DNA from: a virus
Strand: one strand, 5' to 3'
Virus record (IMG/VR): IMGVR_UViG_3300050139_000078
Coordinates: 1 to 30,839 of that record
DNA: 30,839 nt
Shown here: positions 2,490-30,686 of the stretch, piece after piece
Layout: every line of letters begins with the position of its first letter
How positions within the stretch are numbered: the stretch's first letter is position 1
The notes under the pieces: model-generated
What the model saw: the letters and a program-made list of their open reading frames with translations, nothing else
Told to the model about the DNA's origin: nothing
Databases searched by the model: none
Made by a program: the position numbers and the translations under genes

Positions 2490-2530
2490 TGACCTTACCT
2501 TGTCTTTATTTTACTACGACCATAGCCAAG

Positions 2531-13123: not shown

Positions 13124-13684
13124 TTACGAGAGATCGATATCGCCAGAGTGTGATGCAGTGAACGAATCGTCGTCTGCCAAGATACCTACGAAATCAAGAC
13201 GATCAACTAAGATACCGCGCTTATTAAGCGATGCACTCTTACGAGTGAAGCGGCAGTCTGTGATGTTGATGAACTGAGTAGTAGTGATCGTGCCAGGCGC
13301 AGTTGCGCTTGCAGCAGTTGATTCTTGCTTCTGATATACAGCTAAGTCCCAAGTTTGCGAGAACAAGATGTTTCCAGGGTTGATCATGTCAGATGCTGTT
13401 CCGCCAGTAGTTGGAAGAACTTCACCAAGACCGTTACCATTCTTAGCAACGCTGGGCATTAGGTTTGTAGCAGCTACTTTAGTATAGCGAACTACTGATA
13501 GAGATCCAGCAACGGAGTAGTTGACAGGTTCATTTGTCACTGCTTCGTAGCGACCCATCGTTTCGATCGGGATAGTGTCTACAGAGACTTGATACGAAAC
13601 GTCAGAGCAGTAGGCGAAAGTTACGCCTCCAACTAAGATCTTCGCATTCGCGCCTGTTATAAATGAGGGCTTCTGTGCAGCCAT
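13124..13684 (-). CDS. Probable major tail tube protein
   Basis: This 186-aa protein is the most compact of three tube-like paralogs. It has the shared start FITGANAKILVGG, the motif YCSDVSYQVSVDTIPIETMG, the strand VAGSLSVVRYTK, and a C-terminus with FVGILADDDSF. Tube proteins form the inner hexameric rings through which DNA passes. It lies between the sheath and the tube-like paralogs and has its own promoter, leader hairpin and terminator, which fits a protein needed in many copies. The ribosome binding site is AAAGGAA, 7 bp before the ATG. Calling it the major tube protein is an inference from size and regulation. Confidence 0.72.
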   Translation of the reverse strand: MAAQKPSFITGANAKILVGGVTFAYCSDVSYQVSVDTIPIETMGRYEAVTNEPVNYSVAGSLSVVRYTKVAATNLMPSVAKNGNGLGEVLPTTGGTASDMINPGNILFSQTWDLAVYQKQESTAASATAPGTITTTQFINITDCRFTRKSASLNKRGILVDRLDFVGILADDDSFTASHSGDIDLS

Positions 13685-14042: not shown

Positions 14043-16877
14043 TTACGCAGTTTGACTTGCGCGTTGCAGAGTAATTTGTTCTAAGATGAAGTCGATACCT
14101 TCAACAAGCTTCACAACAACCGAGATGTTTACAACATTCCCGTTCATCTGAACAACTAGTTGCTTGTATCCATTCTTGGCATCCGAAGTACTCACTGTGA
14201 TACCTTGAGCGAGATAAGTCGTCAAGATTGCAGCAGCGGTAGAGCTGATCTCAGAGGCTGAAACTGTATTCTTCAGACCAATGTAGATGTTCTCCATCTG
14301 GTTACGGAAGTCATAGGTAAGAACGTCGGCAGCGTAAAGGACATTGGCACGATTGAAGACCCAGTTTCCATCTTTACCGTAAGTTGTATTATCTACAACC
14401 AAGCGGAATCCACCGGTCTGAGGAGCTTCCCAGAAGGTAACGCCATTTGCGATAGCGTCATCATACTGAATATCCGGATCGAAGTCGACATGGATATTAG
14501 CTTCAGGAGTTGACATGGGCTGAGCAGTCTGACGAATACCAGACATGTTGAAGTACTTGAATGTCATAGGATTTCCTACAGGAGATCCGCCGCGTGCACC
14601 AGCTAACATTGCAGAACCTGCCCAAGGGCAGAACCACTTGATAACTCCGTTGCTATCGATCTGACGAACATCTTGGATGCTCATCTGGATGCGAGCATCT
14701 GCCATTACAGCGATCTCAGCTTTGCAGTTGATATAAGTATCTTTAAGCGACAAGTATCCTTGACGTTCAGACTTCTTCTTGGTAGTTGCCATCAGAGACA
14801 AGTGAGTCTTAACAGCTTGATGGATACCATCAATAGTGTAGTTAGAAGCACCGTCGGTGTATCCATCTGCAATATCGGCAGTAGCGTCTCGCGAGAAGAG
14901 AGGAACAACGCTGTTTACGTGAACCTTAGTGAAAGCAGTAAGAGCGTTAACCATATCAGCTGTTGAGCTTGCTCCAAGTGTTCCACCAGCGAGATATGTC
15001 TCAGCAGAAGCATTTGGAAGACCTTGAGTAATACCAGTACCAGGGATCAGAGAAGCATTTGAAGATTGAGCAAAGAACTGTTCAACTTCAAAAGCATCCT
15101 TCTTGATTTGAGCAGGATAGCTAGTAGGCGATGCAGAGGCTGCAGGCAATGCAGTAACTTGATCAAGTACAGAGATAGGAAGTTGACCCATCAGGTTGCT
15201 TCCAGCAGCAGCACTCCAGTTCAATCCCAGCGCACCCGAGTTGATGAACAATACAAGCTGAGAAACTGTACCGAAGTTAGCTAAGGTAATAGTTGCTTCA
15301 ACTGCAGAGTTGTTGCTCAAGATCAAACTTGTAGCGTTGAGAGTTATGTTGGGGCTAACATTGCCAGCACCATAACGACCAAGTTCAAGAACAACGTTTC
15401 CACCAACAGTACCAGACTCATCTATAAGAGTAGACTTGTTAGACAGGGTAATCATTATTTGAGCTTGTGCAGTTGGGCCGACAAGTTCGGAACCGATGTT
15501 GATCGTTCCTTCGCCAGATCCAAGGAGACTTCCACTTACAAGCTCGAAGTTACCAGAACCAGACATTGTGATAGCTACAGTCGCAGCAGCATCAGTTGCT
15601 CCACCGACAGTGAAGGTCATGCCAGCGGGAAGACCGCCAGACCAGTTACCTGCAAGGGCTAGAGCAGCTTGAAGAGCAGCACGAGTAGTTACAGTACTTG
15701 GAATAGAGAAAGTGTTAGTTGCTCCACCGTTAATACGCAATACAATCGTTCCGCCAGTAGACATCGATGTAGTGTAGCCAGTTACAGTGCCTGTAGGGCT
15801 AGATCCTACTTTTCCACGAACAACGCTACCTGCAAACATAGTTACAGCAGAAGTGCCCAAGATTGCATACTCTCTTGCTGTAAGCAACAGAGGAGCAAAT
15901 TGTGCATTAACATTTGCTGCGGCGCTGAGTGTTACAGCAGCACCAAGAGCAATCATGCTTCCGTTTACAGTACCACCAAGAGTATCGGTGATAGCTGTAG
16001 TAGCAATGATGTTACCGTTGAAAACTCCAGGGTTGCCAGAGTTGACAGTTGCAGAACTACCGATCAACCAGTAAACGTTCTTAGCTAATGCGCCGCCAGC
16101 GAGAGTAATCGTTGGAGTTGCACCAGCACCAGTTGTAAGAGTAGAAGGTGTCTTGAACACGAACACATCTGTAGCCGAACCTGTCAGGGTAAGAGGAGTA
16201 CCAGGAAGTGTTGTAGCTAGATGCACGTCGCCAGAAGCGAAAGTGTAGTAACCAGCAGTCAAACTTTGACCATCAAGAGTGTTTGGGATCGTAACATATC
16301 CAGCGTGTGCAGCTAAGCTTGTGTAAGCTGCAGCAGCATCAGTTTGAGCTTGGATAGAATCTGCGTCATCTAAGTGCGAAGACTGACCGCCAGAATAAAT
16401 TCCGCTGGTCAAGTCAAAAGGTGCAGAAGAAGAATTAGCAGGTCCAACAGCGGGAACAGCTGTGCTCTTATAGGTGATAAGATTTCCACCGATACCATAT
16501 GCAAGAGACTGGACAGTTCCGTAGCTAGAAGTTAAAGCAAGCGAAGCGCGAGTTGAAGCGTTAGTCTTATAGATATAAACGGCTTGCGCTCCACCAGGGA
16601 TCGCACCGTCAGCACCAGGAGCAAACAAGAAGTTACATGCATCAACAATCGGTCCGTTTCCGTATGTGTTCTTGATCAGAGGCAGTTCGTCCGGGGTGAA
16701 GAAGTTATTAGAAATGTTAGGGACAGAAGATCCAGGCGCTCCTTTGTCTGATTCTCCGAAAATCGCAACAAGGCCAGTTGGACTTAGTGGAAAGCCACCG
16801 CCAAGGTCTATCGAAACCTGTGAGTAGGCACCGGGCTTATAAATTGTCGCCCCATTAAAACTTACATTGATTGCCAT
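14043..16877 (-). CDS. Tail sheath protein with inserted ice-binding-like domain
   Basis: This 944-aa protein has sheath hallmarks at both ends: the N-terminus TIYKPGAYSQVSIDLGG and LVAIFGESDKG, and a C-terminal region (about 690-940) with GYLSLKDTYINCKAEIA, KYFNMSGIRQT, WEAPQTGGFRLVVDN, and the terminal arm NISVVVKLVEGIDFI. The sheath polymer contracts to drive the tube through the envelope. Between about residues 152 and 367 is a domain resembling DUF3494/ice-binding-like proteins, and residues 368-575 form another Ser/Thr/Gly/Ala-rich beta region. The ribosome binding site is GGAGAG. The gene has its own -10 box and a strong terminator. Sheath identity is firm. Confidence 0.88.
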   Translation of the reverse strand: MAINVSFNGATIYKPGAYSQVSIDLGGGFPLSPTGLVAIFGESDKGAPGSSVPNISNNFFTPDELPLIKNTYGNGPIVDACNFLFAPGADGAIPGGAQAVYIYKTNASTRASLALTSSYGTVQSLAYGIGGNLITYKSTAVPAVGPANSSSAPFDLTSGIYSGGQSSHLDDADSIQAQTDAAAAYTSLAAHAGYVTIPNTLDGQSLTAGYYTFASGDVHLATTLPGTPLTLTGSATDVFVFKTPSTLTTGAGATPTITLAGGALAKNVYWLIGSSATVNSGNPGVFNGNIIATTAITDTLGGTVNGSMIALGAAVTLSAAANVNAQFAPLLLTAREYAILGTSAVTMFAGSVVRGKVGSSPTGTVTGYTTSMSTGGTIVLRINGGATNTFSIPSTVTTRAALQAALALAGNWSGGLPAGMTFTVGGATDAAATVAITMSGSGNFELVSGSLLGSGEGTINIGSELVGPTAQAQIMITLSNKSTLIDESGTVGGNVVLELGRYGAGNVSPNITLNATSLILSNNSAVEATITLANFGTVSQLVLFINSGALGLNWSAAAGSNLMGQLPISVLDQVTALPAASASPTSYPAQIKKDAFEVEQFFAQSSNASLIPGTGITQGLPNASAETYLAGGTLGASSTADMVNALTAFTKVHVNSVVPLFSRDATADIADGYTDGASNYTIDGIHQAVKTHLSLMATTKKKSERQGYLSLKDTYINCKAEIAVMADARIQMSIQDVRQIDSNGVIKWFCPWAGSAMLAGARGGSPVGNPMTFKYFNMSGIRQTAQPMSTPEANIHVDFDPDIQYDDAIANGVTFWEAPQTGGFRLVVDNTTYGKDGNWVFNRANVLYAADVLTYDFRNQMENIYIGLKNTVSASEISSTAAAILTTYLAQGITVSTSDAKNGYKQLVVQMNGNVVNISVVVKLVEGIDFILEQITLQRASQTA
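15777..16424 (-). other. Ice-binding-like (DUF3494) domain in permuted order within the sheath
   Basis: In residues 152-367 the order is: GGQSSHLDDADSIQAQTDAA (helix), LDGQSLTAGYYTFASG, LTLTGSATDVFVFKTPSTL, NVYWLIGSSATVN, FNGNIIATTAIT, GTVNGSMIALGAAVTL, and last REYAILGTSAVT plus GKVGSSPTGTVTGY. In standard DUF3494 proteins the last segment comes first. The repeats of a right-handed beta-helix are evident. Ice binding itself is not shown; related domains also act as adhesins or surface modules. Confidence 0.72.
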
Positions 16878-17892: not shown

Positions 17893-18527
17893 TAAAACTC
17901 ATCCTCATAAGAACGTATAACACGCTCTATTATCTCTTGTGACTGCTCGTTCAACGAGTTATTTATATCAGTCAGGTCTGTTGTAAAGTCTTTATCCTTT
18001 GCTGGCATTACCCAACTAGTTGATCGACTTTGTTTGCTAGTTGCTGTCCTAAAATTAGCTTTAGAAGCGACTGGCTTTATCTTATTATACTGAGCTACAG
18101 CTGATTCATGCCTCTCGGCAGCAATCTGTTTCTGAGCGTCAAAGATGTTATTCGCTATAGTTGGCTTCTTTCCAGGAGTTCCAACTGGAATAACCTTATA
18201 GACTCCAGAACCATCTTTCATCGGCTTAGCATTAGAGAGAAGCTTGTCTAACATAGGATACGGAGGATCTGAGAAGTCCATGTTATGTGAGGCAGTCTCT
18301 AGTTGAAAAGCACCTGGCATAGGGCGTAGATCGTTGATGAATTGTGCCGATTGCTTCTGTACTCCAGCTTCAATAGCTAAATCCATAGCTGCATCCATGG
18401 CGTCTCGCATCTCAGATTCTATTTCTATCTGCGCTTTGTCGACCAATGAATCTATGGTCTCTTCTGCGAGACCTCTAGCTCTCAACGTCATGCGCAGCCT
18501 GTCTAGATCTAATTGGACGTTAGCCAT
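17892..18527 (-). CDS. Putative head-tail connector protein (HK97 gp10-like position)
   Basis: This 211-aa protein has a long N-terminal helical part (RLRMTLRARGLAEETIDSLV) and a C-terminal acidic helix (SQEIIERVIRSYEDEF). Between them is a short Pro/Gly segment (VGTPGKKPTI). Its place between the head-closure-type genes and the tail terminator candidate matches HK97 gp10-like connectors, but I do not see a decisive motif. Its start overlaps the end of the NUDIX gene by 8 bp. Confidence 0.45.
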   Translation of the reverse strand: MANVQLDLDRLRMTLRARGLAEETIDSLVDKAQIEIESEMRDAMDAAMDLAIEAGVQKQSAQFINDLRPMPGAFQLETASHNMDFSDPPYPMLDKLLSNAKPMKDGSGVYKVIPVGTPGKKPTIANNIFDAQKQIAAERHESAVAQYNKIKPVASKANFRTATSKQSRSTSWVMPAKDKDFTTDLTDINNSLNEQSQEIIERVIRSYEDEF

Positions 18528-20064
18528 TGCCTTTTCCCTTACTAATCGTCTTAGCTCGCATGTCTGTGAGAAAGTTCTCTTTCTCTAAGTGCTGCCAATC
18601 TGACCCAAACATGATAGTTATCTTACCGCTAGGCATGATCTCTACCTTAGGTCTTGATAGATAAGGGTAAAAGTTATCAATAACTTCATCTTTGTTGGGG
18701 GGATTAGCAGAGAAGGCTTCAACCTTTTGAGGTTTCTTACCCATCTCATCGATTTTTGATTGTAATTCGCGTAGCTTTCTTTCAAGCTCATCTACATCGT
18801 CGCCAGCATGTGTCGCCAGCGAGTTGTGTTTCTCTGTCAGCGTGTGGACCAGTTCTTCTAACCTGTCGAACAAGGACATGATCCTGTGCTCAACCTGCTG
18901 CAGATCAACAGCCATACCATTTCTTATCGTAGAACGAATATGCTCCATCTCTTCATAGATGTTAGCAATGTTGTGCCGCTTATAATTATCAATGAGGTTA
19001 TTTAAACCACCATGAAGAGCATCGTCAGAGAGCTGATCGTTACCTTCCATGTCAAATAGCTTCTCGTCTTCTGGTAGATACCATTCGAAGACGCTCATCA
19101 GCGCAGCGGTCATTTCAGGAAGTGATTTATTAGTGAACTGATATACAACTTTATGTCCGTCGCTGACACGACCAGAGTAGATGTCGCTCATATGCTTGCG
19201 AACGCTCAAGGTATATGTATCAATATGTACATCCTTGAAGTCTTCGTCTTTCATGCTCCTGACAGCATTCTTGAGCTGTCTGAACAATCCAGTTCCTACG
19301 AGACGCAGTGCATCGCCGTGGGTTACTTCAAGTACTGCATCGCCTTTCTGGCGGATGATATTCTTTTCTAGATTTTCTAATGCCAGCATGCCCTTAAGAG
19401 TCTTGCCAAGTCTATTGGTCAAGAATTCTTTTAGTGGAGCTCTGCAGCAGCCTCTGATACTGTCCCACTCAATCTTATTGGGCTCAACCCATCTTATATT
19501 CTTTAATTCTTTGCTGGATTTCGGCTTGCCTGTGTATGATTCGACTAGATAAACTATCACGTGGTGACCGCGGTCTGTACCTTCCCAAACTTTGTTTGGG
19601 TTCATACCGATCACACCTGCTTCTTCATGGAGCTCGCGCATTGCAGTAGTAGCGAAGTCTCCGTTGTCTGCAGTATCCATGTGACCACCTGGAAAGGCCA
19701 TTCCGCCTTTGTGATCGCCTAGTAGAATGCGACCCATGTCATCCATTACGATGCATGCTGCCGCGTTGCCACTGGCTAGATCGCCCTCGGTCTCAGCACC
19801 CTTCTTGAGGTGCTTCTTGTGCTTGTCTTTCTTGCGTTCATGCCGTTTGGCCTCTACGCGTTCTTTGTCTTTAGCGTGGTGGTGTTCGCCCCATGTACCG
19901 CCACGGTTCTCTCCGTGCTGTTCAGGAGCATCTTTACCTGGATCTGTATACTTTGCTGCCACGGATTTAGGAGGAGTACCTCTGCCACCTGAGGAGCTTC
20001 CACCCTTGCCAGATAAGATCGCTCGCATCATACGGTATTGTTTACGACTTACTGCCTGTGGCAC
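18520..20064 (-). CDS. Virion-cluster protein with NUDIX hydrolase domain
   Basis: This 514-aa protein begins at a GTG preceded by AGGAGT. Residues 1-90 are a Gly/His/Lys-rich basic tail (HHHAKDKERVEAKRHERKKD). Residues about 98-205 form a NUDIX domain: GGHMDTADNGDFATT, then AMRELHEEAGVIG, preserving the REUxEExGU core that binds metal, although the spacing from the first Gly is longer and the first Glu looks replaced. NUDIX enzymes cleave nucleoside diphosphates linked to another group. Residues 225-514 include a long helical region with a coiled coil (DDVDELERKLRELQSKIDEM). Placing it within the head-tail gene block is unusual and suggests a virion-associated or chimeric protein. Confidence 0.75.
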   Translation of the reverse strand: MPQAVSRKQYRMMRAILSGKGGSSSGGRGTPPKSVAAKYTDPGKDAPEQHGENRGGTWGEHHHAKDKERVEAKRHERKKDKHKKHLKKGAETEGDLASGNAAACIVMDDMGRILLGDHKGGMAFPGGHMDTADNGDFATTAMRELHEEAGVIGMNPNKVWEGTDRGHHVIVYLVESYTGKPKSSKELKNIRWVEPNKIEWDSIRGCCRAPLKEFLTNRLGKTLKGMLALENLEKNIIRQKGDAVLEVTHGDALRLVGTGLFRQLKNAVRSMKDEDFKDVHIDTYTLSVRKHMSDIYSGRVSDGHKVVYQFTNKSLPEMTAALMSVFEWYLPEDEKLFDMEGNDQLSDDALHGGLNNLIDNYKRHNIANIYEEMEHIRSTIRNGMAVDLQQVEHRIMSLFDRLEELVHTLTEKHNSLATHAGDDVDELERKLRELQSKIDEMGKKPQKVEAFSANPPNKDEVIDNFYPYLSRPKVEIMPSGKITIMFGSDWQHLEKENFLTDMRAKTISKGKGNG

Positions 20065-20117: not shown

Positions 20118-20936
20118 TTACGGATTCTCTTGTCCCGTATTGACTAGCTTATCACCCTGGTTAACCAAGAAGTCACGTTTCACTAAGATCTGCTGTGGAA
20201 GTCGCCTTGCTTGTTTTTGCCCATTCACTAGTTCTTGAGTAATTCTAAGTTCACGCAGTGATTGGAGCACTAGATATACGGGTTTAGCATAGTATGCCCA
20301 ACCAATAACTTCGCCTCTTTCTAGGGCTGTGTTATATATAGGCTGATGTCCATCTACCCAAACTATATCTCCGGCTGCATCTATGTTGAAGTCAACACCC
20401 ACCGTATAGAACTTCTGTATTCCATCTGTGATAGAGGAAGCATAGTCGATCTTCTCTACTGGATACCTAAGGTCCTGTATATCACCTGGACGTGGCTCAT
20501 ACATCTTATGTTGCCAAAGCCGAACAGTAAAGTCGGGAAGCTCAAGCTTATCGTACGTATTGAAGTCAGCCTGAGTTCCATCTGGATACTCAGTCGGCAG
20601 CGTAACAACTGCAGATCCTACTTCCCAAACGCCGTGGGCCTCAAAGGTCTTCTCTATGGAGTTACCGCTGAAAATGCCCCATATTTCTTTAGATTCGTAG
20701 TAGATAATGCCAGAGTTGTTGCAGTATGGACACTCAGGATCGTGAGCTTGAAAGTCAGTTGACCTAATGTTAAAACAAGGTATCGCCTTGTGATGAATCA
20801 TCCTTACACCGCGCTGCGTGATCAGCTGATCGAAGCTAACACCCTTAATGCTTGGATCTGGTAGATACAGCGGCATAGGTGATGGCGTGGTTGTAGGCGC
20901 ATTAGGGTATGGTTGATTAGGTGTATCCATGGACAT
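20118..20936 (-). CDS. Putative head-closure/neck protein with zinc-binding-type cysteines
   Basis: This 272-aa protein has a Pro-rich N-terminus, then Cys54, His65, Cys69 and Cys72 in a CPYCNNSGIIYY knuckle typical of structural zinc sites. Later beta segments (SGNSIEKTF, AVVTLPTEYPDG, YTVGVDFNIDAAGDIVWVDG) resemble neck or adaptor proteins of large myophages. It is the first minus-strand gene of the structural block in this window. The ATG has TATAAT 6 bp upstream; a second ATG at 20930 follows AGGT, so the exact start is uncertain. Confidence 0.5.
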   Translation of the reverse strand: MSMDTPNQPYPNAPTTTPSPMPLYLPDPSIKGVSFDQLITQRGVRMIHHKAIPCFNIRSTDFQAHDPECPYCNNSGIIYYESKEIWGIFSGNSIEKTFEAHGVWEVGSAVVTLPTEYPDGTQADFNTYDKLELPDFTVRLWQHKMYEPRPGDIQDLRYPVEKIDYASSITDGIQKFYTVGVDFNIDAAGDIVWVDGHQPIYNTALERGEVIGWAYYAKPVYLVLQSLRELRITQELVNGQKQARRLPQQILVKRDFLVNQGDKLVNTGQENP

Positions 20937-21596: not shown

Positions 21597-21893
21597 ATGG
21601 GACCATTCGAGAATCTAACTAGCCAGGAAGTAACGAGCCTACATATAATGATCCGTTTCTTAAGGAGATTGGGTTGCTGTGGGAAGGTGTTCACTACCAC
21701 TGTCAGTGCAGATAAGAATATCCCTGTGTCCGCATTGAACTTTGCAGACAGAGACCACAAGAGCCTCAGATACTCCATCAGATATGACGGGTACGATCCT
21801 AGTCGCTATGAGATGCAGGTAGAGCTTGAGCTAGAAAAGATCTTCGGCAGCAAGATGCGAGTAGATCCTTGGACGACACACTTTAAGTTTTAA
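21597..21893 (+). CDS. Member of the LLxxLG family, 98 aa
   Basis: Residues 10-30 contain LHIMIRFLRRLGCCGKVF, a full version of the shared motif. The rest is a mixed, charged region (YDPSRYEMQVELELEKIFG). It ends 3 bp past the stop of the convergent minus-strand micro-gene, so the two 3' ends overlap by 4 bp. Confidence 0.6.
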   Translation: MGPFENLTSQEVTSLHIMIRFLRRLGCCGKVFTTTVSADKNIPVSALNFADRDHKSLRYSIRYDGYDPSRYEMQVELELEKIFGSKMRVDPWTTHFKF

Positions 21894-22190: not shown

Positions 22191-22499
22191 CTACAATGAT
22201 GGGAAAACTAGCTGTTTAGAGATAGATTCCATTGATTCTACTTGCAGAACCCCTTGAGGCATGTGGATTGAGACCTTCTGTTTGACTCCATCTTGGTCAA
22301 CCTTACTCCAGTACCACCCAGTTGGGTCCTTAGTCCAGCCCAATAGCTTTACCGTCATTTGCTGAAGTGTAGCCCTGCTGATATTTTCTGGAGTAGGAGC
22401 TGGATAGTACATACCCATTTCCAGTGCTTTCATCAGGGACTTGATCAGGGACTTGAGAGCATCTTCCATGGCAGTATTAGGCGGCATCTGCCATCTCAA
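22191..22499 (-). CDS. Member of the LLxxLG family, 102 aa
   Basis: The protein contains LQQMTVKLLGWTKDPTG at about residues 46-62, closely matching LLKFLLPLIGWTKEP in the gene at 26454-26615, followed by a beta-hairpin-like stretch (YWSKVDQDGVKQKVSIHM). A first helix (LKSLIKSLMKALEMG) looks like a second copy of the motif. No strong ribosome binding site precedes the ATG, so the start is uncertain. Confidence 0.6.
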   Translation of the reverse strand: MRWQMPPNTAMEDALKSLIKSLMKALEMGMYYPAPTPENISRATLQQMTVKLLGWTKDPTGWYWSKVDQDGVKQKVSIHMPQGVLQVESMESISKQLVFPSL

Positions 22500-22541
22500 T
22501 GAGAAGGAATAGCCAAGCGGCTAAAAGATAGTAGTTAAGAT

Positions 22542-22844
22542 CTACAAGCAGGCATACAAGAGTAATGAGCATTTCCAGACTCCAGCAATAAATAGGCCAA
22601 CAATACCGACAGTGACAATTATACCGATGCCCATCATCACCCTGTCTGGCCATGTACTTGCAGCTGGTGCAACAGGATAACTTTGATATGATGTGCCAAG
22701 CATAGAGCTGAACATGCCCATGGTATGTCTGAGCGTTAGTTTATCTTTAGCCTCATTGAGAATCTGAACATTGAATCCCATAGATCTCATGAGTATGAAT
22801 AGCTTGATAGTGCTGGAGTATGCACCTATCTGATTATCGTCCAC
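22542..22844 (-). CDS. LLxxLG-family protein with a transmembrane helix
   Basis: This 100-aa protein has the family motif near the N-terminus (IKLFILMRSMGFNVQ). Residues 66-95 contain a clear hydrophobic membrane span (VMMGIGIIVTVGIVGLFIAG). It would present the motif on one side of the inner membrane. The start overlaps the stop of the previous gene. Confidence 0.6.
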   Translation of the reverse strand: MDDNQIGAYSSTIKLFILMRSMGFNVQILNEAKDKLTLRHTMGMFSSMLGTSYQSYPVAPAASTWPDRVMMGIGIIVTVGIVGLFIAGVWKCSLLLYACL

Positions 22845-23050
22845 TACGTATCCTCGTGTGGTAAAAGAATGGTTATATAGTGAAGACTAGTGTCCACCAT
22901 TGGTAGAGGAATAGAACATGGTGGCATTGATGGTCCATGGCCGAACACCATTGTTAAAGCATGTGCGACCTGTCCACGCTTCATCTTGATTAGTTGAAGC
23001 TTTAGCAGCAGCGTCAACAGGCTAATATAAATTGTATTGTAGTGGTCCAT
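22844..23050 (-). CDS. LLxxLG-family small protein
   Basis: This 68-aa protein has ISLLTLLLKLQLIKM near its N-terminus, a diverged form of the shared motif, followed by a Pro- and His-containing segment (FGHGPSMPPCSIPLP). The start codon overlaps the previous stop as TAATG, so translation is probably coupled. Confidence 0.5.
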   Translation of the reverse strand: MDHYNTIYISLLTLLLKLQLIKMKRGQVAHALTMVFGHGPSMPPCSIPLPMVDTSLHYITILLPHEDT

Positions 23051-23226
23051 TATGTTTCAAACTTCTTTGCAAACTTCTTTATGTCTTTCACCATCGTAAC
23101 ATGGTCCTCAAGACCAAGCCGCATTAAGAAAACTATAAGCCACATAGCATATCTCTCGCCAGGAGGTTTGTTCTCTGCCATGTAAAGAAGACGTAGCGGT
23201 GAATACGGGTACGTCTTCTCTCTCAT
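23050..23226 (-). CDS. Micro-protein of the LLxxLG family
   Basis: This 58-aa protein has a Pro- and Tyr-rich N-terminus (EKTYPYSPLRLLYMAENKPP), then the motif MWLIVFLMRLGLEDHVT and a Lys-rich tail (VKDIKKFAKKFET). Both ends overlap neighbouring genes through TAATG junctions. Confidence 0.6.
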   Translation of the reverse strand: MREKTYPYSPLRLLYMAENKPPGERYAMWLIVFLMRLGLEDHVTMVKDIKKFAKKFET

Positions 23227-23693
23227 TAGTCCATTACTCGAAATACGATATTGCTAACTGTCCGATAGCAGAGGACACATCCTTGCGCCGGTCCAATATG
23301 TCTATATTTGAAATCCTCTAGACCAAAAACCCCATAGAGATTGCTAGTGAGTTTCACTACATGTGTAGGAACACCAAAGTTATCTAAGCTATCGTGTGCA
23401 GCAGCTTCGATTCTATCTTGCTCTGTTCCGGCATAAGCACCTAGTGCTACTTGGTCAAGGATCTGAGCGAGAAGGTTATTCTTGGTTGGCTCTTGAACTA
23501 CAACGGCGTTGCGAACATAAACCGAATCCTCTAGTTCTCCAGATTCGTCCAGCCCGCCGTACGACACTTGTCTGTTGTATGTCTGAACTGTAAGCGTTGT
23601 GCTCTCACTTGGAATTAGTGCTAAGAACTGCTCGAACGTTACGACATCCAAACTTGCACTGAATTTATATTCTTCTTTAACTACTTCTGACAT
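23226..23693 (-). CDS. Hypothetical protein within the micro-gene array
   Basis: This 155-aa protein is larger than its neighbours and I see no convincing LLxxLG motif. It has a beta-rich first half (SASLDVVTFEQFLALIPSES, LTVQTYNRQVSYGG) and a C-terminal segment with two Cys (GPAQGCVLCYRTVSN). The ribosome binding site is AAAAGGAG, and a TATAAT box lies 23 bp upstream of the ATG, so it probably opens its own transcript. Confidence 0.7.
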   Translation of the reverse strand: MSEVVKEEYKFSASLDVVTFEQFLALIPSESTTLTVQTYNRQVSYGGLDESGELEDSVYVRNAVVVQEPTKNNLLAQILDQVALGAYAGTEQDRIEAAAHDSLDNFGVPTHVVKLTSNLYGVFGLEDFKYRHIGPAQGCVLCYRTVSNIVFRVMD

Positions 23694-23716
23694 ATGGTCT
23701 CCTTTTGTAAAAGACT

Positions 23717-23722
23717 ATTATA
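23717..23722 (-). promoter_or_regulatory. -10 box before the 155-aa gene
   Basis: The minus strand reads TAGTATAATAGTC, 23 bp upstream of the ATG, next to the end of the preceding gene. Confidence 0.42.
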
Positions 23723-24040
23723 CTATCGATGCGGTGGCATCCTTGGTCGTTTATACTTAGCTCCAAATAACCATACAAGCCTGCGCATATTTGGATCAAG
23801 GTCGAGCTCACGAAGAAGAGCTATGAGTGCTCTCTTTGATATCTGTTGGTTTCTCTCTGTGGCTACGCGCTCGCGTCTCTTGTCCATCTTGCGACTTGCC
23901 CACCATAAGGATATGGTCAATATGGTTGCAGCAATCTCTAAGATCACGGTCTCATCCTGTATATGCGTGCTTGTAAGATACCGCCATGCATGTTTAGGCC
24001 GAGCTTTGAAAGAAACTGACATAGAAACATGCGAGACCAT
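23723..24040 (-). CDS. LLxxLG-family protein with an N-terminal-half membrane span
   Basis: This protein is 105 aa from the ATG at 24040, which follows GCAGAGGCG; a TTG at 24058 would add six residues. It has a hydrophobic span (ETVILEIAATILTISLWWAS) followed by a strongly basic loop (RKMDKRRERVATERN), then the family motif RALIALLRELDLDPNM and a basic C-terminus. The basic loop after the span suggests a cytoplasmic C-terminal half with the motif. Confidence 0.6.
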   Translation of the reverse strand: MVSHVSMSVSFKARPKHAWRYLTSTHIQDETVILEIAATILTISLWWASRKMDKRRERVATERNQQISKRALIALLRELDLDPNMRRLVWLFGAKYKRPRMPPHR

Positions 24041-24098
24041 TCGCGCCTCTGCTTCCAATGCGATTTCTTGATTCTGTTTACATGATTGCCCATCAGGG

Positions 24099-24371
24099 CT
24101 ATTTTACTTCTTCGTTTCCTAGACCTGGAGAACGCTCAGAGACAACGCTGTGCTCTGGATGAGAGACCTTGCCTGCTGTCCGCTTGTTGTATGCGTTCTT
24201 GGGGCGTTTGCCGCCACCGAAGTTATGGAGAGATCCCTTAGCTCCAAAGTCCTGGTGAAGTTCACCAGTGACAGAGCTACCGCCATATACCTTATAGGGC
24301 TTGTCGTACGTAGGGCCTGCAGCTTTGCATAGTTCCCACTGACCTAGGGCGTTGAATTTAGTGTACTCCAT
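24099..24371 (-). CDS. Small Gly/Lys-rich protein, unknown
   Basis: This 90-aa protein has many Gly, Lys and Ser residues (YGGSSVTGELHQDFGAKG, HNFGGGKRPKNAYNK) and no clear helix motif. Its first 28 bp overlap the end of the next micro-gene in another phase. No family is recognised. Confidence 0.5.
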   Translation of the reverse strand: MEYTKFNALGQWELCKAAGPTYDKPYKVYGGSSVTGELHQDFGAKGSLHNFGGGKRPKNAYNKRTAGKVSHPEHSVVSERSPGLGNEEVK

Positions 24372-24514
24372 AGCTTTATCTTATCATCTTTGAAGGTTAC
24401 TCTAAAGAAGCCAGTCTTTGTCTCTATGAACTGGTCAAAGTCTTGTAGAACGCCCAGCAGTGTGAGAAACTCTATGAGCTGAAGCTGATAGACATTCTTA
24501 ATCGTATATGCCAT
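24344..24514 (-). CDS. Micro-protein of the LLxxLG family
   Basis: This 56-aa protein reads LQLIEFLTLLGVLQDFDQF near the N-terminus, one of the clearest copies of the motif, followed by a beta-hairpin-like stretch with aromatic residues (GFFRVTFKDDKIKLW). It overlaps both neighbours by 17 and 28 bp. Confidence 0.6.
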   Translation of the reverse strand: MAYTIKNVYQLQLIEFLTLLGVLQDFDQFIETKTGFFRVTFKDDKIKLWSTLNSTP

Positions 24515-24671
24515 TTATCACCATCTGCTTCTTCCAGTCGCTTTGTACCACATATCCATTACTAATCAGGTGTATGTGAATCTCAATGTTCACTACTTTA
24601 AGTACCCTGAGAAGTTCCATAAGTTTATAGCGCGCGTTATCGCCAGAGACTATAGTCCCTATTTCCACCAT
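24498..24671 (-). CDS. Micro-protein of the LLxxLG family
   Basis: This 57-aa protein has YKLMELLRVLKVVN, followed by alternating hydrophobic strands (IEIHIHLISNGYVVQSDW) with the Asn-Gly turn and Trp seen in other members. The upstream sequence GGAAAAGAG may be its ribosome binding site. Confidence 0.58.
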   Translation of the reverse strand: MVEIGTIVSGDNARYKLMELLRVLKVVNIEIHIHLISNGYVVQSDWKKQMVINGIYD

Positions 24672-24799
24672 ATACACTCTTTTCCTACTCCACCATTAGC
24701 ACCTGGGTCCCAGTAGTAATGTGGAGTCATTGGAATCCTCATGCCTAGGGTGCTAAGCAACTGAAGCAGTCTCCATGTTGGATTGTTATCTGTTACCAT
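24659..24799 (-). CDS. Micro-protein of the LLxxLG family
   Basis: This 46-aa protein starts with an Asn/Thr-rich cap and the motif WRLLQLLSTLGMRIPM, then an aromatic C-terminus (HYYWDPGANGG, CIWWK). The motif is N-terminal, unlike genes 25060-25206 and 25203-25367 where it is C-terminal. Confidence 0.58.
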   Translation of the reverse strand: MVTDNNPTWRLLQLLSTLGMRIPMTPHYYWDPGANGGVGKECIWWK

Positions 24800-24947
24800 C
24801 GTGCCATTTCTCTACATGCGCTTGGAGACCAAATGCCATCGGTCTCATGTCTACGACGGCACACTCGCCTGGTATAAGCTTGAACTTCAGCAAGAGCATC
24901 ACTAAGCTGTACTGTGAGTCTGTATAGAGCTTTATCATTTGAACCAT
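24786..24947 (-). CDS. Micro-protein of the LLxxLG family
   Basis: This 53-aa protein reads YSLVMLLLKFKLIPGE at residues 13-28, then CAVVDMRPMAFGLQAHVEKW. The 3' end overlaps the next start by 14 bp. Confidence 0.55.
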   Translation of the reverse strand: MVQMIKLYTDSQYSLVMLLLKFKLIPGECAVVDMRPMAFGLQAHVEKWHDGNR

Positions 24948-25063
24948 ATTTTAAATTTAGCTAACAGCTGCAGCGCATACCGTGTATCTGCTGCTCTCTC
25001 CTGCTGCCTGCGAATGTAGTAGTTACCCGCAAAGTCTGGTACTCGCTTGTCGTTAGGGCTCAT
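24935..25063 (-). CDS. Micro-protein of the LLxxLG family, motif at C-terminus
   Basis: This 42-aa protein ends with YALQLLAKFKIWFK after a basic stretch (YIRRQQERAADTR). Its start overlaps the preceding stop by 4 bp (ATGA type). Confidence 0.5.
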   Translation of the reverse strand: MSPNDKRVPDFAGNYYIRRQQERAADTRYALQLLAKFKIWFK

Positions 25064-25206
25064 CTCATCCCCAGTTTATGCAAGAGTATAAAAAGTTGTA
25101 TCTGCGTCTCCGTCAGCATGTGTTTATTGAAGATTTCCCGAATAGGGCCCCCACCACTCTTGTACATCACCTTAATAACATAGCCACCCTTCATGTTGAT
25201 GCTCAT
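25060..25206 (-). CDS. Micro-protein of the LLxxLG family, motif at C-terminus
   Basis: This 48-aa protein starts with a beta-hairpin-like stretch (INMKGGYVIKVMYKSGGG) and ends with IQLFILLHKLGMR as its last residues. It overlaps both neighbours by 4 bp. The ending is almost the same as in the next upstream gene (FIFMHRIGMR). Confidence 0.6.
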   Translation of the reverse strand: MSINMKGGYVIKVMYKSGGGPIREIFNKHMLTETQIQLFILLHKLGMR

Positions 25207-25367
25207 CGCATCCCTATCCTATGCATGAAGATGAAGAGCCTGTGGTGTATATGAGTGCTTGGCTCGCACAGCACAGTCTCACTGAAGATCCCGTCGTACT
25301 TGTGGAAGTTATCAAACATGTAGCTCAAGCTCTCTGTGTCCTTGTACGTAGCTTTCCATACGCTCAT
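25203..25367 (-). CDS. Micro-protein of the LLxxLG family, motif at C-terminus
   Basis: This 54-aa protein ends with HRLFIFMHRIGMR. The first part is aromatic and polar (SYMFDNFHKYDGIFSE). The 4-bp ATGA overlap suggests coupled translation with the preceding gene. Confidence 0.58.
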   Translation of the reverse strand: MSVWKATYKDTESLSYMFDNFHKYDGIFSETVLCEPSTHIHHRLFIFMHRIGMR

Positions 25368-25459
25368 TGCTGAGCCTTCCTGAGCTTATCGACAAAGCGA
25401 ATAAGCTTCTCCTGCCTGCTCATCGGTATCATTCCCCAGATTAAGGGTCTAAACGCCAC
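25364..25459 (-). CDS. Very short LLxxLG-like protein, GTG start
   Basis: Starting at a GTG after AAGGTGG, the product is 31 aa and contains EKLIRFVDKLRKAQQ, a polar version of the shared helix. An ATG at 25432 would give 22 aa. It overlaps both neighbours. It could be a decayed member. Confidence 0.38.
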   Translation of the reverse strand: MAFRPLIWGMIPMSRQEKLIRFVDKLRKAQQ

Positions 25460-25586
25460 GATTCCACCTTACGCCTAGCTTATGCAAGAACTGAGTGAGA
25501 GCAAATTGCTTGTACCAATAAGACGGTGGTCCATAGCAACCTGGCACCTTAATGTCGGTGCCGTTGAACCTAACGGTAATTGCCAT
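25449..25586 (-). CDS. Micro-protein of the LLxxLG family, motif near C-terminus
   Basis: This 45-aa protein begins with a strand-turn-strand (ITVRFNGTDIKVPG), then aromatic residues, and ends with FALTQFLHKLGVRWNRGV. The order strand then helix is the same as in 25060-25206. Confidence 0.6.
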   Translation of the reverse strand: MAITVRFNGTDIKVPGCYGPPSYWYKQFALTQFLHKLGVRWNRGV

Positions 25587-25734
25587 AACTCTCTTCCTCG
25601 CACTGCGGCCACATCATGTACTCACGCGGCACTATGTCCAGCAGGTAGAGCAGACCCATCAGGCAGACCATGGCCTCGAACTTGGGGCGCGGCAATACTA
25701 TGCGGGTCCAGCGGCGTACGTCTTCCGTTATCAT
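25570..25734 (-). CDS. Micro-protein of the LLxxLG family, GC-rich
   Basis: This 54-aa protein has MVCLMGLLYLLDIVPREY in the centre and an acidic C-terminus. From this gene upstream to 26615 the DNA is clearly richer in G and C than the preceding micro-genes. TATAAT lies 6 bp before the ATG with no ribosome binding site. Confidence 0.52.
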   Translation of the reverse strand: MITEDVRRWTRIVLPRPKFEAMVCLMGLLYLLDIVPREYMMWPQCEEESYGNYR

Positions 25735-25740
25735 TGTTAT

Positions 25741-25746
25741 ATTATA
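25741..25746 (-). promoter_or_regulatory. -10 box with leaderless spacing inside the array
   Basis: The minus strand reads GTGTATAATATAACAATG, with the box 6 bp before the ATG at 25734. It overlaps the stop region of the preceding gene and could start a second transcript for the downstream half of the array. Confidence 0.42.
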
Positions 25747-25939
25747 CACGACCGGCTTGCCGCAGCAGGCGACAGGTGAGGCATAGCAGCCATTCGCGGT
25801 GCAGTGGAGCCAACATGTGCCACTGCGGGTAATAGCGCTTGATTGGTCGTTTGATCTCCATCTCCGCGAAGCGGGAGATGCGATCTTCGACCGTGACCAT
25901 GCGCGTCATCCGCACTGGACGCATAGGTATGCCGCTCAT
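25742..25939 (-). CDS. Basic micro-gene product with LL-rich C-terminus
   Basis: This 65-aa protein is rich in Arg and Met (MRPVRMTRMVTVEDRISR) and ends with REWLLCLTCRLLRQAGRV, a distant version of the family helix at the C-terminus. Its start overlaps the previous stop by 4 bp. Confidence 0.5.
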   Translation of the reverse strand: MSGIPMRPVRMTRMVTVEDRISRFAEMEIKRPIKRYYPQWHMLAPLHREWLLCLTCRLLRQAGRV

Positions 25940-26100
25940 GTGGTCCTCAGGTTATATGGATCGATGGCGCCTAGCATGTCGAGCAGCTTGATGAGCTCGT
26001 AGTAGGAGTTGTACTCCTCGATGTTATCGATGTAGATGGGAATAGGTAGGTTGTACTCGCCGTGGTTGATGTGATACTGACGAATGTAAGTATAGTCCAT
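25936..26100 (-). CDS. Micro-protein of the LLxxLG family
   Basis: From the ATG at 26100 this is 54 aa, with a Tyr/Ile/Asn-rich first half (YNLPIPIYIDNIEEYNS) and the motif YELIKLLDMLGAIDPYN near the end. A longer start at 26136 exists but would overlap the previous gene by 37 bp. Confidence 0.6.
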   Translation of the reverse strand: MDYTYIRQYHINHGEYNLPIPIYIDNIEEYNSYYELIKLLDMLGAIDPYNLRTT

Positions 26101-26246
26101 CAGTAGTCGTTCCCGCCGAAGGCGTCGATGTCGCACCCGTTGTCAATGAAGACATAAGGAATGTTGTGACTACGGGCAAGGCCGAGAGCCTGGAGGAAGA
26201 GGAACAGGGTGCGAACCTGCTGGTCGTTGAAGGTGAGCTCTGTCAT
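26100..26246 (-). CDS. Micro-protein of the LLxxLG family
   Basis: This 48-aa protein carries VRTLFLFLQALGLARSHN after a short N-terminus and ends in an acidic, Gly-rich tail (IDNGCDIDAFGGNDY). Confidence 0.58.
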   Translation of the reverse strand: MTELTFNDQQVRTLFLFLQALGLARSHNIPYVFIDNGCDIDAFGGNDY

Positions 26247-26335
26247 TGGGTGAGTATGAGCCTGTACGGGTTATAGCCGAGTTTGGCCAGAAGAATAAAG
26301 AGCTCTAGATGAGGGTGAGGAGTGTCTTTCTTCAT
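26243..26335 (-). CDS. Minimal LLxxLG micro-protein, 30 aa
   Basis: The product consists of little more than the motif: LELFILLAKLGYNPYRLIL after a Lys/His/Pro cap. It overlaps neighbours by 4 bp at both ends. A longer frame up to 26431 exists but lies inside the preceding gene. Confidence 0.5.
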   Translation of the reverse strand: MKKDTPHPHLELFILLAKLGYNPYRLILTQ

Positions 26336-26454
26336 TGTGTTGGGAACCTGATGCGCATTGCGGTGGTGTAGTCTTCTACGGAGAGGATGTGAAACTTGTT
26401 GAGGATGCGGAGTAGCTGTCGTGTTGGCCAATAGCCGGGTGGTGTGGCCTTCAT
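26332..26454 (-). CDS. Micro-protein of the LLxxLG family
   Basis: This 40-aa protein reads RQLLRILNKFHILSVEDY, then TTAMRIRF. The plus-strand gene 29382-29573 has RDLVSFLKSVGLIDVEEY followed by VSIMRILI, so the two are recognisable paralogs over about 26 residues although they lie on opposite strands 3 kb apart. Confidence 0.58.
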   Translation of the reverse strand: MKATPPGYWPTRQLLRILNKFHILSVEDYTTAMRIRFPTQ

Positions 26455-26615
26455 TAGTCGTTCCACCAGTGGATGCCGTTGAAGCTGATGCCGATGCGGT
26501 TGCCCTTGTGGTTTATGTAGGTCATAGTGAGGGTAGTGATGGGCTCTTTGGTCCAGCCGATGAGAGGGAGGAGGAACTTGAGGAGGGTGAAGCTGTGGGC
26601 CTGTTTGATATCCAT
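26454..26615 (-). CDS. First gene of the minus-strand micro-gene array
   Basis: This 53-aa protein has FTLLKFLLPLIGWTKEP near its N-terminus, then a strand-turn-strand (LTMTYINHKGNRIGISF) and ends in WWND. It is the closest relative of 22191-22499 through the GWTK(E/D)P motif. No ribosome binding site is visible; TATAAA lies 7 bp before the ATG. Confidence 0.58.
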   Translation of the reverse strand: MDIKQAHSFTLLKFLLPLIGWTKEPITTLTMTYINHKGNRIGISFNGIHWWND

Positions 26616-26822
26616 ATAATATTTTATACCTATTAGGAAACAAGTAGTGGTACCTGTGTTTGCCTATTAGGTGCATGAAAATATGAAAAACCTTATGTAC
26701 ACTAGGATTTGGCGGCGAGTACCACTCCTGACACAAGGGATCCCTTGAAAGGTGAAGCTAGCGGGCCCTTTCTGAAACTAAGCACTGATGTAACGAATAT
26801 ATAACGATTGAATAACCTGATG
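26616..26822. promoter_or_regulatory. Divergent intergenic control region
   Basis: No gene is visible between the minus-strand array and the plus-strand early genes. It contains CCTATTAGG twice (about 26629 and 26663), an 8-bp inverted repeat AGTGGTAC (26646-26653) with GTACCACT (26719-26726), the perfect palindrome CAAGGGATCCCTTG at 26734-26747, and a further GAAAGG/CCTTTC stem just after it. TATAAA for the minus-strand array lies at its left edge. Confidence 0.4.
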
Positions 26823-26933: not shown

Positions 26934-27443
26934 ATGAAAGTGAATCAAAAGACTGCCGTCTACATGGCGATCACTACGGTGCTTGCTGAGGCTGGACATG
27001 ACTTCAGCGACGGCATGAATGTGGCAGCATTCATGACCAAGGACCTTCGGGCGATAGTGAACGCGATCCTGTTCAAGGGATTCCGCGACAGCGAGATCGA
27101 ACTGGACCGAGAGTACAGCGATACGGATCTCAAGGCGTATGTGAGCGGGTTGCAGAGCAACTGGATACGCAAGGACAAGCGGTTCAACGGCAACACGAAG
27201 TACGTCGCCAAGAACCCTGGGTCAAGAGCGGGAAGCGGAGATCAAGCGTTGGTCAATGCCAAGCGTCTGCTAGCTCAGGTCGAGCTTGGCAACAACGGAT
27301 ACACGGCGGCTGACAAGGATGTGCTCGAGACATTCATCAGGGAGCGCACATCAGAGATTGCAGCTGAGAAGATCAAGGCGACAGTGATCGACTTCTCCGC
27401 TCTGCCTCCGCATCTGCGCACTAAGTTCCAGACCAACCACTAG
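26934..27443 (+). CDS. Paralogous phage protein A, unknown function
   Basis: This 169-aa protein begins after ATGGAGGACTGA, a strong ribosome binding site. Its core (DREYSDTDLKAYVSGLQSNW, then IRKDKR, NGNT, YVAKNPGSRAGSGD) is highly conserved with the gene at 28736-29224: I count 58 identical residues in a 66-residue stretch. The C-terminus ends in IDFSALPPHLRTKF. The basic IRKDKR and the Gly/Ser/Arg turn could touch nucleic acid, but no known fold is recognised. It is followed by a strong terminator, so it is a single-gene unit. Confidence 0.75.
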   Translation: MKVNQKTAVYMAITTVLAEAGHDFSDGMNVAAFMTKDLRAIVNAILFKGFRDSEIELDREYSDTDLKAYVSGLQSNWIRKDKRFNGNTKYVAKNPGSRAGSGDQALVNAKRLLAQVELGNNGYTAADKDVLETFIRERTSEIAAEKIKATVIDFSALPPHLRTKFQTNH

Positions 27444-28735: not shown

Positions 28736-29224
28736 GTGAAAGTGAATCAAAAGTCGGCTGTGTTTGCAGCCATCAGCATGGTGCTGAGCAATGCAGGTAT
28801 CGAGTTCACCGAGGGTGAGAACGTATCTGAGCACATGACCAAAGAAGTCCGTGCACAGGTCAATGCGATCCTCTTCCAAGGCTTCAGAGCTGGGGACATT
28901 GAGCTCGACCGTGAGTACAGTGACACGGACCTGAAGGCGTATGTGAGTGGCTTACAGTCCAACTGGATCCGCAAGGACAAGCGACTGAATGGCAACACCA
29001 CATATGTGGCCAAGAACCCTGGATCACGTGCAGGCTCTGGAGACAGCCAGCTCAAGAACATGAAGCTCTTGCTGGCGACGCTCACTCCTGGCACGGACGA
29101 CTACATCGAGGTCGAGACCGCAGTGACCGCACGCACTATCGAAGTGCAAGCGAGCAAGGCCAAGTCGATCACGGTGGACTTCAGTGCTCTGCCTGCTCAT
29201 CTCCGCGCTAAGTTCCAGAAGTAA
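28736..29224 (+). CDS. Paralogous phage protein B, unknown function
   Basis: This 162-aa protein starts at a GTG after AAGGGAGAATCAA. It has the same opening (MKVNQKSAVF), conserved core and ending (VDFSALPAHLRAKF) as 26934-27443. Many codons differ by synonymous changes in the conserved core, so the duplication is old and both copies have been kept under selection at protein level. It is followed by a strong terminator. Function unknown. Confidence 0.75.
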   Translation: MKVNQKSAVFAAISMVLSNAGIEFTEGENVSEHMTKEVRAQVNAILFQGFRAGDIELDREYSDTDLKAYVSGLQSNWIRKDKRLNGNTTYVAKNPGSRAGSGDSQLKNMKLLLATLTPGTDDYIEVETAVTARTIEVQASKAKSITVDFSALPAHLRAKFQK

Positions 29225-29381: not shown

Positions 29382-29573
29382 GTGCACGCCGATATATTCG
29401 AGAAAGAGCTAATAACAAGAGACCTAGTCTCATTCCTTAAATCAGTAGGCCTTATAGATGTAGAAGAGTATGTCAGCATCATGCGCATCCTGATAGGGAG
29501 GATAGACGAGGAGCTGAAGAGACCGATGCCGACCACTATATCTGGCCAACTTAGGAAAGCCGACTCAGAGTGA
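29382..29573 (+). CDS. Plus-strand member of the LLxxLG family
   Basis: The likely start is a GTG at 29382 after TGGAGGG, giving 63 aa; the frame extends further upstream without a better ribosome binding site. It contains RDLVSFLKSVGLIDVEEY and VSIMRILIGRIDEEL, clearly related to the minus-strand gene 26332-26454. This links the early modules to the micro-gene array. Confidence 0.6.
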   Translation: MHADIFEKELITRDLVSFLKSVGLIDVEEYVSIMRILIGRIDEELKRPMPTTISGQLRKADSE

Positions 29574-30322: not shown

Positions 30323-30543
30323 GTTCAATAGCGTTCAACCAGAAGATGAAGAAATCAGAGTTTGAGGCCAAGGTTGTAGCAGATCTTGGCATGGACGGTC
30401 TTACTTGCTGTCCGTATGTTGAAGAGGGGAAGCACATGACTCTATACTACAAGAATGGCGTACATGTAGGAACATGGATAAGAAGTTGTGGTATTAGTCG
30501 AGGTTGGATCTTTACATCTGCGTATCCAAAGCCAACACCTTGA
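30319..30543 (+). CDS. 74-aa protein, unknown
   Basis: The ATG overlaps the preceding stop as ATGA and follows AGGAAG; a longer start at 30202 lies inside the previous gene. It contains an aromatic strand-turn-strand (HMTLYYKNGVHVGTWI) like those in the micro-gene family and ends in SAYPKPTP. Confidence 0.58.
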   Translation: MSSIAFNQKMKKSEFEAKVVADLGMDGLTCCPYVEEGKHMTLYYKNGVHVGTWIRSCGISRGWIFTSAYPKPTP

Positions 30544-30686
30544 ACGACCATATCCTTGCTATCCAAGATCTAATTAGATTGCTCAGGATGCTGGATATTC
30601 GCAGCGCTTTGAATGTAAAAGGTGACCACGGAAGGTTATACTACTTTGGCTTTGCTGAGAGAATGGGCATCAACACTCAATCCTGA
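30540..30686 (+). CDS. Plus-strand LLxxLG micro-protein, TTG start
   Basis: The frame carries QDLIRLLRMLDIRSALNV, followed by an aromatic segment (GRLYYFGFAERMG). TTG at 30540 overlaps the previous stop as TTGA, a coupled start giving 48 aa. A TTG at 30504 would give 60 aa. Neither has a good ribosome binding site. Confidence 0.52.
   Translation: MNDHILAIQDLIRLLRMLDIRSALNVKGDHGRLYYFGFAERMGINTQS

Follow-up and report, generated by a model that had tools for sequence, protein, structure and literature searches.

Analysis of the entire 30.8-kb record of one phage (30,839 nt; IMG/VR record IMGVR_UViG_3300050139_000078, hereafter the window) uncovered an array of approximately 24 consecutive minus-strand micro-genes spanning 4.4 kb (positions 22191–26615), in which about 19 of the 24 encoded proteins share an amphipathic decamer with the consensus LLxLLxKLG[I/V/L]. 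A subset of the helix-bearing small proteins was traced to pieces of virion proteins of the same phages. The architecture, consisting of a leader, a variable array, and helix-tagged micro-genes, is almost certainly real, and we propose, with a probability of roughly 45%, that the micro-proteins act as helix-docked adaptors that would show different baits to one partner. Functions are lacking for a vast number of the proteins that small phage genes encode, and here dozens of otherwise unrelated ones are united by one short helix. Questions of gene origin and gene function become testable through a single point, the binding target of the shared helix.

The array and its relatives

Neighboring array genes in the window mostly overlap by 1 to 28 bases, and the members of 22 of the 23 adjacent pairs, nearly all of them overlapping, lie in different reading frames. 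Approximately 45 distinct related contigs were recovered from IMG/VR using two neck-region genes (18520–20064 and 20118–20936). Most of these have an array of the same kind upstream of their neck genes, often with a short divergent cluster after it, and the arrays adjoin head and tail genes. The head protein of one relative is related to gp6.1 of phage SPO1 (PDB 9vel, 2.3e-63). It also has more remote relatives in Bacteroides phage DAC16, Chryseobacterium phage MA9V-3, and Myxococcus phage Mx1. The phage was present in two bacterial metagenome bins, one of Saprospiraceae and one of Cytophagales, and on this binning evidence the hosts are probably Bacteroidota; the phages represent an uncultured group of large, tailed, SPO1-like viruses.

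Four near-complete contigs (147–177 kb) each encode 20–27 motif-bearing ORFs outside large genes at a score of at least 12, counts that are approximate since antisense ORFs can pass the motif threshold by chance. The same count in DAC16, MA9V-3, SPO1, and Mx1 is 0, 2, 0, and 1, respectively, and the motif profile finds no match in the cultured relatives DAC16, SJC03, MA9V-3, SPO1, and Mx1.

A short helix shared by array proteins

Scoring with a ten-residue matrix (L-x-x-[LF]-L-x-[KR]-L-[GNKD]-[IVLM]) gave values of at least 11 for 19 of the 24 array proteins, where shuffled sequences would yield 0.07, and a second matrix, trained on 247 motifs from outside the window, gave at least 10 for 16 of the 24 (0.067 expected). 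The initial annotation had reported a shared motif in micro-genes of this region, among them five at 24344–24514, 24659–24799, 25060–25206, 25203–25367, and 25449–25586. These five ORFs are present on the minus strand, the sharing is above chance and far more widespread than was claimed, and the genes are part of the larger array rather than a local oddity.

From its upstream end, with all genes on the minus strand, the array begins with 26454–26615 (helix first, LKFLLPLIGW; missed by the non-window matrix), 26332–26454 (a product starting MKATPPGYW, helix LLRILNKFHI), 26243–26335 (LFILLAKLGY), 26100–26246 (helix first, LFLFLQALGL), and 25936–26100 (a late helix, LIKLLDMLGA), followed by 25742–25939, in which the motif is degenerate or absent (score 6.1), and 25570–25749 (GTG start, LMGLLYLLDI). 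The gene at 25449–25586 combines a segment resembling the tail-sheath N-terminus, MAITVRFNGTDIKVPGCY, with the helix LTQFLHKLGV. Next are 25364–25459 (GTG start, LIRFVDKLRK; weak by the non-window matrix), two genes with C-terminal helices at 25203–25367 (LFIFMHRIGM) and 25060–25206 (LFILLHKLGM, the top motif score in the window), 24935–25063 (ALQLLAKFKI, near the C-terminus), 24786–24947 (LVMLLLKFKL, near the N-terminus), 24659–24799 (LLQLLSTLGM, then YWDPGANGGVGKE), 24498–24677 (GTG start, LMELLRVLKV), and 24344–24514 (LIEFLTLLGV, then RVTFKDDKIKLWSTL). A conserved gene without the helix occupies 24099–24371. The remaining genes are 23944–24093 (LCQFLSKLGL), 23723–24040 (start uncertain, LIALLRELDL), 23226–23693 (155 aa, motif sub-threshold), 23050–23226 (LIVFLMRLGL), 22844–23050 (N-terminal helix, LLTLLLKLQL), 22542–22844 (GTG start, LFILMRSMGF; weak by the non-window matrix), and 22191–22499 (motif disrupted, score 1.4). 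Outside the array, on the plus strand, the helix occurs in a gene of the divergent cluster at 21597–21893 (MIRFLRRLGC) and at 30504–30686 (LIRLLRMLDI), and a helix-like sequence at 29382–29573 (LVSFLKSVGL).

Across 258 motifs from outside the window, leucine occupies positions 1, 5, and 8 in 93–97% of cases, lysine position 7 in 60%, glycine position 9 in 54%, and isoleucine, valine, or leucine position 10 in 91%, often with KSA next. Each protein carries a single helix, the exception being one low-complexity protein with two (1/258). Placement is free from the N- to the C-terminus: of the 258 helices, 31 begin no more than 12 residues from the N-terminus, and 44 finish no more than 8 residues from the C-terminus.

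At identical helix residues, codon agreement equals the expectation from codon use (0.257 in the window versus 0.251 expected). The helix is therefore a protein-level feature rather than a DNA repeat, and its copies are not recent DNA duplicates, so both of these origins were ruled out; the copies are either old paralogues under protein-level selection or convergent short motifs. Derivation of the helix from a large phage protein was likewise rejected, since 78 families of large proteins showed no conserved site; a single protein of 195 aa in this comparison matches the helix well. Searches with the window micro-proteins against Pfam and PHROG returned scattered single matches, none significant (best 0.012 and 0.01, respectively), and the motif profile had no significant match in the PDB (best 0.8).

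Variants of the helix are lineage-specific. Phenylalanine at position 1 is found in 13 of 18 motifs of contigs L041, L043, L049, and L054 versus 14 of 418 elsewhere (p 5e-14), on paralogues that are otherwise unrelated, with codons saturated in L043 and L054; confined to four related phages, this variant could partly reflect shared descent. The distant phage L007 uses its own version, FYxTFYxLxG, on genes including one sheath fragment and one tube fragment. Parallel change of the helix in unrelated paralogues suggests a common binding partner with which it would co-evolve. The 64 clade-specific conserved genes make a list too long to single out that partner. Parallel change within a lineage is also predicted if the micro-proteins are mutual partners, with the helix serving as a self-association element in one mixed oligomer. 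The L1-L4-L5-L8 pattern is amphipathic, but ten residues with a terminal glycine cap are short for a stable coiled coil, and we regard a mixed oligomer as improbable.

Payloads related to virion proteins

When helix-masked micro-proteins were set against 795 large proteins from this clade, 11 matched at E<1e-3, versus none of the reversed or shuffled controls. Profiles built from large-protein families and from micro-protein families gave agreeing payload matches, with controls near zero. The donors were identified with PHROGs as head (3e-52), sheath (1.8e-26), and baseplate wedge (6.6e-25) proteins.

One payload corresponds to residues 1–19 of the tail sheath (family HMM of six members, 1.7e-9). 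Its products are 44–97 aa long and the match is confined to the first 18–20 or so residues of the sheath. The window representative, 25449–25586 (−), is supported by a segment HMM (4e-4), by the family HMM against sheaths, and by alignment, and the window sheath at 14043–16877 (−; phrog_279) is the donor-type protein; sheath domains past the N-terminal strand are absent from this gene and its relatives. Two payloads match the major head protein, one at approximately residues 43–91 (6e-12 over 47–74) and the other at residues 221–267 (1e-6 over 221–266). In the window, the product of 24344–24514 (−) resembles the payload from head-protein residues 43–74 in alignment and is not significant alone, while the 155-aa product of 23226–23693 (−), which appears homologous to L003:2324, weakly resembles the 221–267 segment (segment HMM E 1.5, not significant). 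Further payloads match tube-like proteins over a hairpin (1.5e-7 and 3e-4), for which the tail tube-like protein at 13124–13684 (−; phrog_365, 0.009) is the donor type of the payloads found in relatives. The first 40 or so residues of the baseplate wedge protein recur in one gene (1e-6), and a protein of about 1200 residues from the tail operon is matched by two genes, including 24659–24799 (−), in which YWDPGANGGVGKE is the shared stretch (two-member family HMM against F066 proteins, 7e-4). By alignment, 22191–22499 (−) likely belongs to a family with a baseplate-like start and a head-protein-like end. Separately, L086:1894–2142 (−) seems to be a three-part composite, in which a start like the baseplate wedge N-terminus (MAIxxKxFxQI) is joined to the helix and to a segment of the head protein.

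A scan independent of the helix, in which segment profiles were run against all 11,788 short ORFs at a cut-off of 0.05, returned 22 matches, 18 of them in helix-bearing ORFs; reversed ORFs gave 0. The remainder includes one sheath gene truncated by its contig end and two variant-helix genes of L007, whose array at 1255–3434, with its different helix (FYxTFYxLxG), still contains sheath and tube fragments. We place high confidence in the derivation of the sheath and head-protein families from virion proteins. No origin could be detected for most of the other payloads, so the term bait generalizes from five or six families.

The best conserved array gene is 24099–24371 (−), despite having no helix. 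It has orthologues in 8 other phages, and its N-terminus (MEYxxFxxxGQWxLxK) is weakly similar to late tail-operon proteins (L044:17448–17993, 0.0057; L057:17941–18510, 0.03), which would perhaps make its start another virion fragment.

The fragments might alternatively be scrap from gene birth, taken from strongly expressed virion genes to supply a start site or raw coding sequence, with only the helix being of consequence. Capture of start regions would predict N-terminal fragments, which is true of the sheath and wedge pieces, and many payloads are of no detectable origin, but the head and tube fragments are internal and virion-like residues are kept in the fragments across divergent phages. 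In addition, dN/dS between homologous micro-genes of different phages is 0.08–0.39 where dS is measurable and is low along the whole length of the genes measured, a sign of purifying selection, compared with 1.2 and 1.9 for two artefactual pairs of antisense ORFs that served as a negative control. Taken together, these observations leave gene-birth scrap with a low probability.

Order of helix and payload

The arrangement of helix and payload in the five genes is as originally described. The helix comes first in 24659–24799 (residues 11–20 of 46) and 24344–24514 (13–22 of 56), and last in 25060–25206 (38–47 of 48), 25203–25367 (44–53 of 54), and 25449–25586 (30–39 of 45). Description of the other part as a beta segment is weakly supported: AlphaFold places strands at residues 3–7 and 10–14 and a helix at 22–36 of the 25449–25586 product, with a mean pLDDT of only 63. 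Both orders also occur with homologous payloads. The helix precedes the payload from head-protein residues 43–74 in L027, G002, and G005 and follows it in G006, and it precedes the tube payload in L027 and G001 and follows it in L044 (more weakly in L055 and L032). Judged from these homologous payloads, the change of side is genuine.

The initial annotation had explained the two orders by start and stop codons sliding along a chain of alternating helix and hairpin units. While both orders occur as that model predicts, the reading frame changes at 22 of the 23 window junctions, and a shifted start or stop codon between such overlapping neighbors cannot transfer a module without indels. Sliding would also be expected to leave two-helix proteins, of which the single low-complexity case among 258 was found, and the register of helix and payload is kept in 120 of 134 homologous pairs. 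Nor are the non-helix parts copies of a single repeated helix-hairpin unit; they bear no relation to one another, and several derive from different virion proteins. The outcome named at the time as refuting the model, fixed boundaries with unrelated folds in related phages, is largely what the relatives show. Boundary sliding is thus not supported and we consider it highly improbable, whereas re-pairing of the helix with different payloads, by recombination or convergent gain of the motif, fits the data better.

A proposed model of helix-docked adaptors

In the adaptor model, each array product would consist of two parts, the ten-residue amphipathic helix and one variable bait. The helix would dock all products on one common partner, of phage or host origin, and the bait would set what reaches that partner. 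Virion-derived baits would bind where the intact segment does, and would intercept or recruit virion subunits or whatever recognizes those segments. In contractile tails, the sheath N-terminus is an intersubunit strand that joins the sheet of neighboring subunits (PMC10457771), so a micro-protein presenting this strand could take up the same slot. Fragments of 18–50 residues may not fold or bind alone. New products would arise when the helix is joined to another fragment rather than through shifts of gene boundaries, and as independent modules the helix and bait would be free in order.

Such adaptors could control the phage's own assembly, block competing phages, or mislead host sensors. A rival reading is that the virion-fragment micro-proteins are anti-defense decoys, binding host sensors for head, tube, or sheath proteins without setting them off. 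We know of no sensor of sheath N-termini, which counts against decoys, and the shared helix and non-virion payloads are left unexplained. Tube and head segments do recur among the payloads, and bacterial sensors of virion proteins exist, such as DSR2, which is reported to be triggered by a tail tube protein (PMC11263360); on balance, a decoy role seems quite unlikely.

A conserved leader upstream of the array

A conserved element of approximately 180 nt containing the palindrome CAAGGGATCCCTTG lies at 26644–26806 (−) in the window (nhmmer E 3e-34). It occurs once per genome, just upstream of the arrays, in approximately 27 relatives including L007 (nhmmer, E down to 5.5e-43), and nhmmer does not find it in DAC16, MA9V-3, SPO1, or Mx1. 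This leader is much better conserved than the array genes behind it. As a candidate structured RNA it was rejected, with no supported fold and no Rfam match, and a sigma-70-like promoter was not found in the leader region, Bacteroidota promoters being different from that type.

Homologues in another phage were found for 37% of genes in the leader-distal quarter of the arrays versus 14% in the first quarter, and this polarity along the array (Spearman 0.18, p 0.036) is weak and no more than suggestive. By analogy only, the array resembles CRISPR arrays, in that a conserved leader heads hypervariable content whose leader-distal units are slightly more shared, but its units are translated genes without DNA repeats. 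Extending this analogy, the array could be a protein-level library in which fragments of virion genes are caught beside the leader and fused to the docking helix, yielding interchangeable adaptors that would act on virion assembly by related competitor phages or by parasitic elements, with turnover like that of a CRISPR array. We regard this extended version as speculative and improbable.

Comparison with known phage systems

The capsid targeting sequence of phage T4 is N-terminal, whereas the tag described here is a helix of about ten residues at any position. T4 internal proteins are a diverse set with a common short conserved targeting sequence (PMC3012670), and the array is similar in that matrix scans find one short conserved tag uniting otherwise diverse small phage proteins; it differs in having 20–27 genes per genome and payloads that include copies of virion proteins. 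By this comparison, the helix could be a packaging tag for varied payloads that travel inside the virion and reach the cell at infection, which would suit arrays adjoining head and tail genes. Such a tag is unlikely, given that the helix may be N-terminal, internal, or C-terminal and that copies of virion segments would be odd cargo.

In SPO1, the host takeover module groups early genes, most of them small, into one cluster (PMC6873191). A dense cluster of small genes is likewise present at the window array and in relatives, and SPO1 has a related head protein (gp6.1), but the module has no described shared motif; in the SPO1 genome no short ORF carries the helix at a score of at least 12 and the motif profile matches nowhere. 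Tab (tail assembly blocker) targets the tape measure protein and blocks the tail assembly of another phage (PMC10884400). Interference by a phage protein with another phage's virion assembly is also one reading of the virion-fragment adaptors, although Tab is a single prophage protein and not an array. None of the three is the same system as the array. The full combination of a free-position putative docking helix, virion-fragment payloads, a conserved leader, and hypervariable content had no counterpart in family libraries nor, in a limited keyword check, in open papers.

Other features of the window

The divergent-cluster gene at 21597–21893 (+) belongs to a family of 12 members across phages, for which AlphaFold predicts a beta/alpha mini-domain (pLDDT 76). 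The family model has no significant fold match (Foldseek best E 0.27–0.30; VIA Z at most 4.5), and in sequence the family resembles tube-like proteins only weakly (0.13). Residues 129–320 of the window sheath (−) form an inserted ice-binding-like domain (PF11999, 7.9e-29), and the neck-region protein at 18520–20064 (−), conserved clade-wide, contains a NUDIX domain (PF00293, 2.2e-12). Two paralogous proteins of approximately 165 aa starting MKVNQKxAVxxAI are encoded at 26934–27443 and 28736–29224 (+), with apparent further copies in relatives (for example G001 at 109686 and 117466, and G006 at 106806 and 111099).
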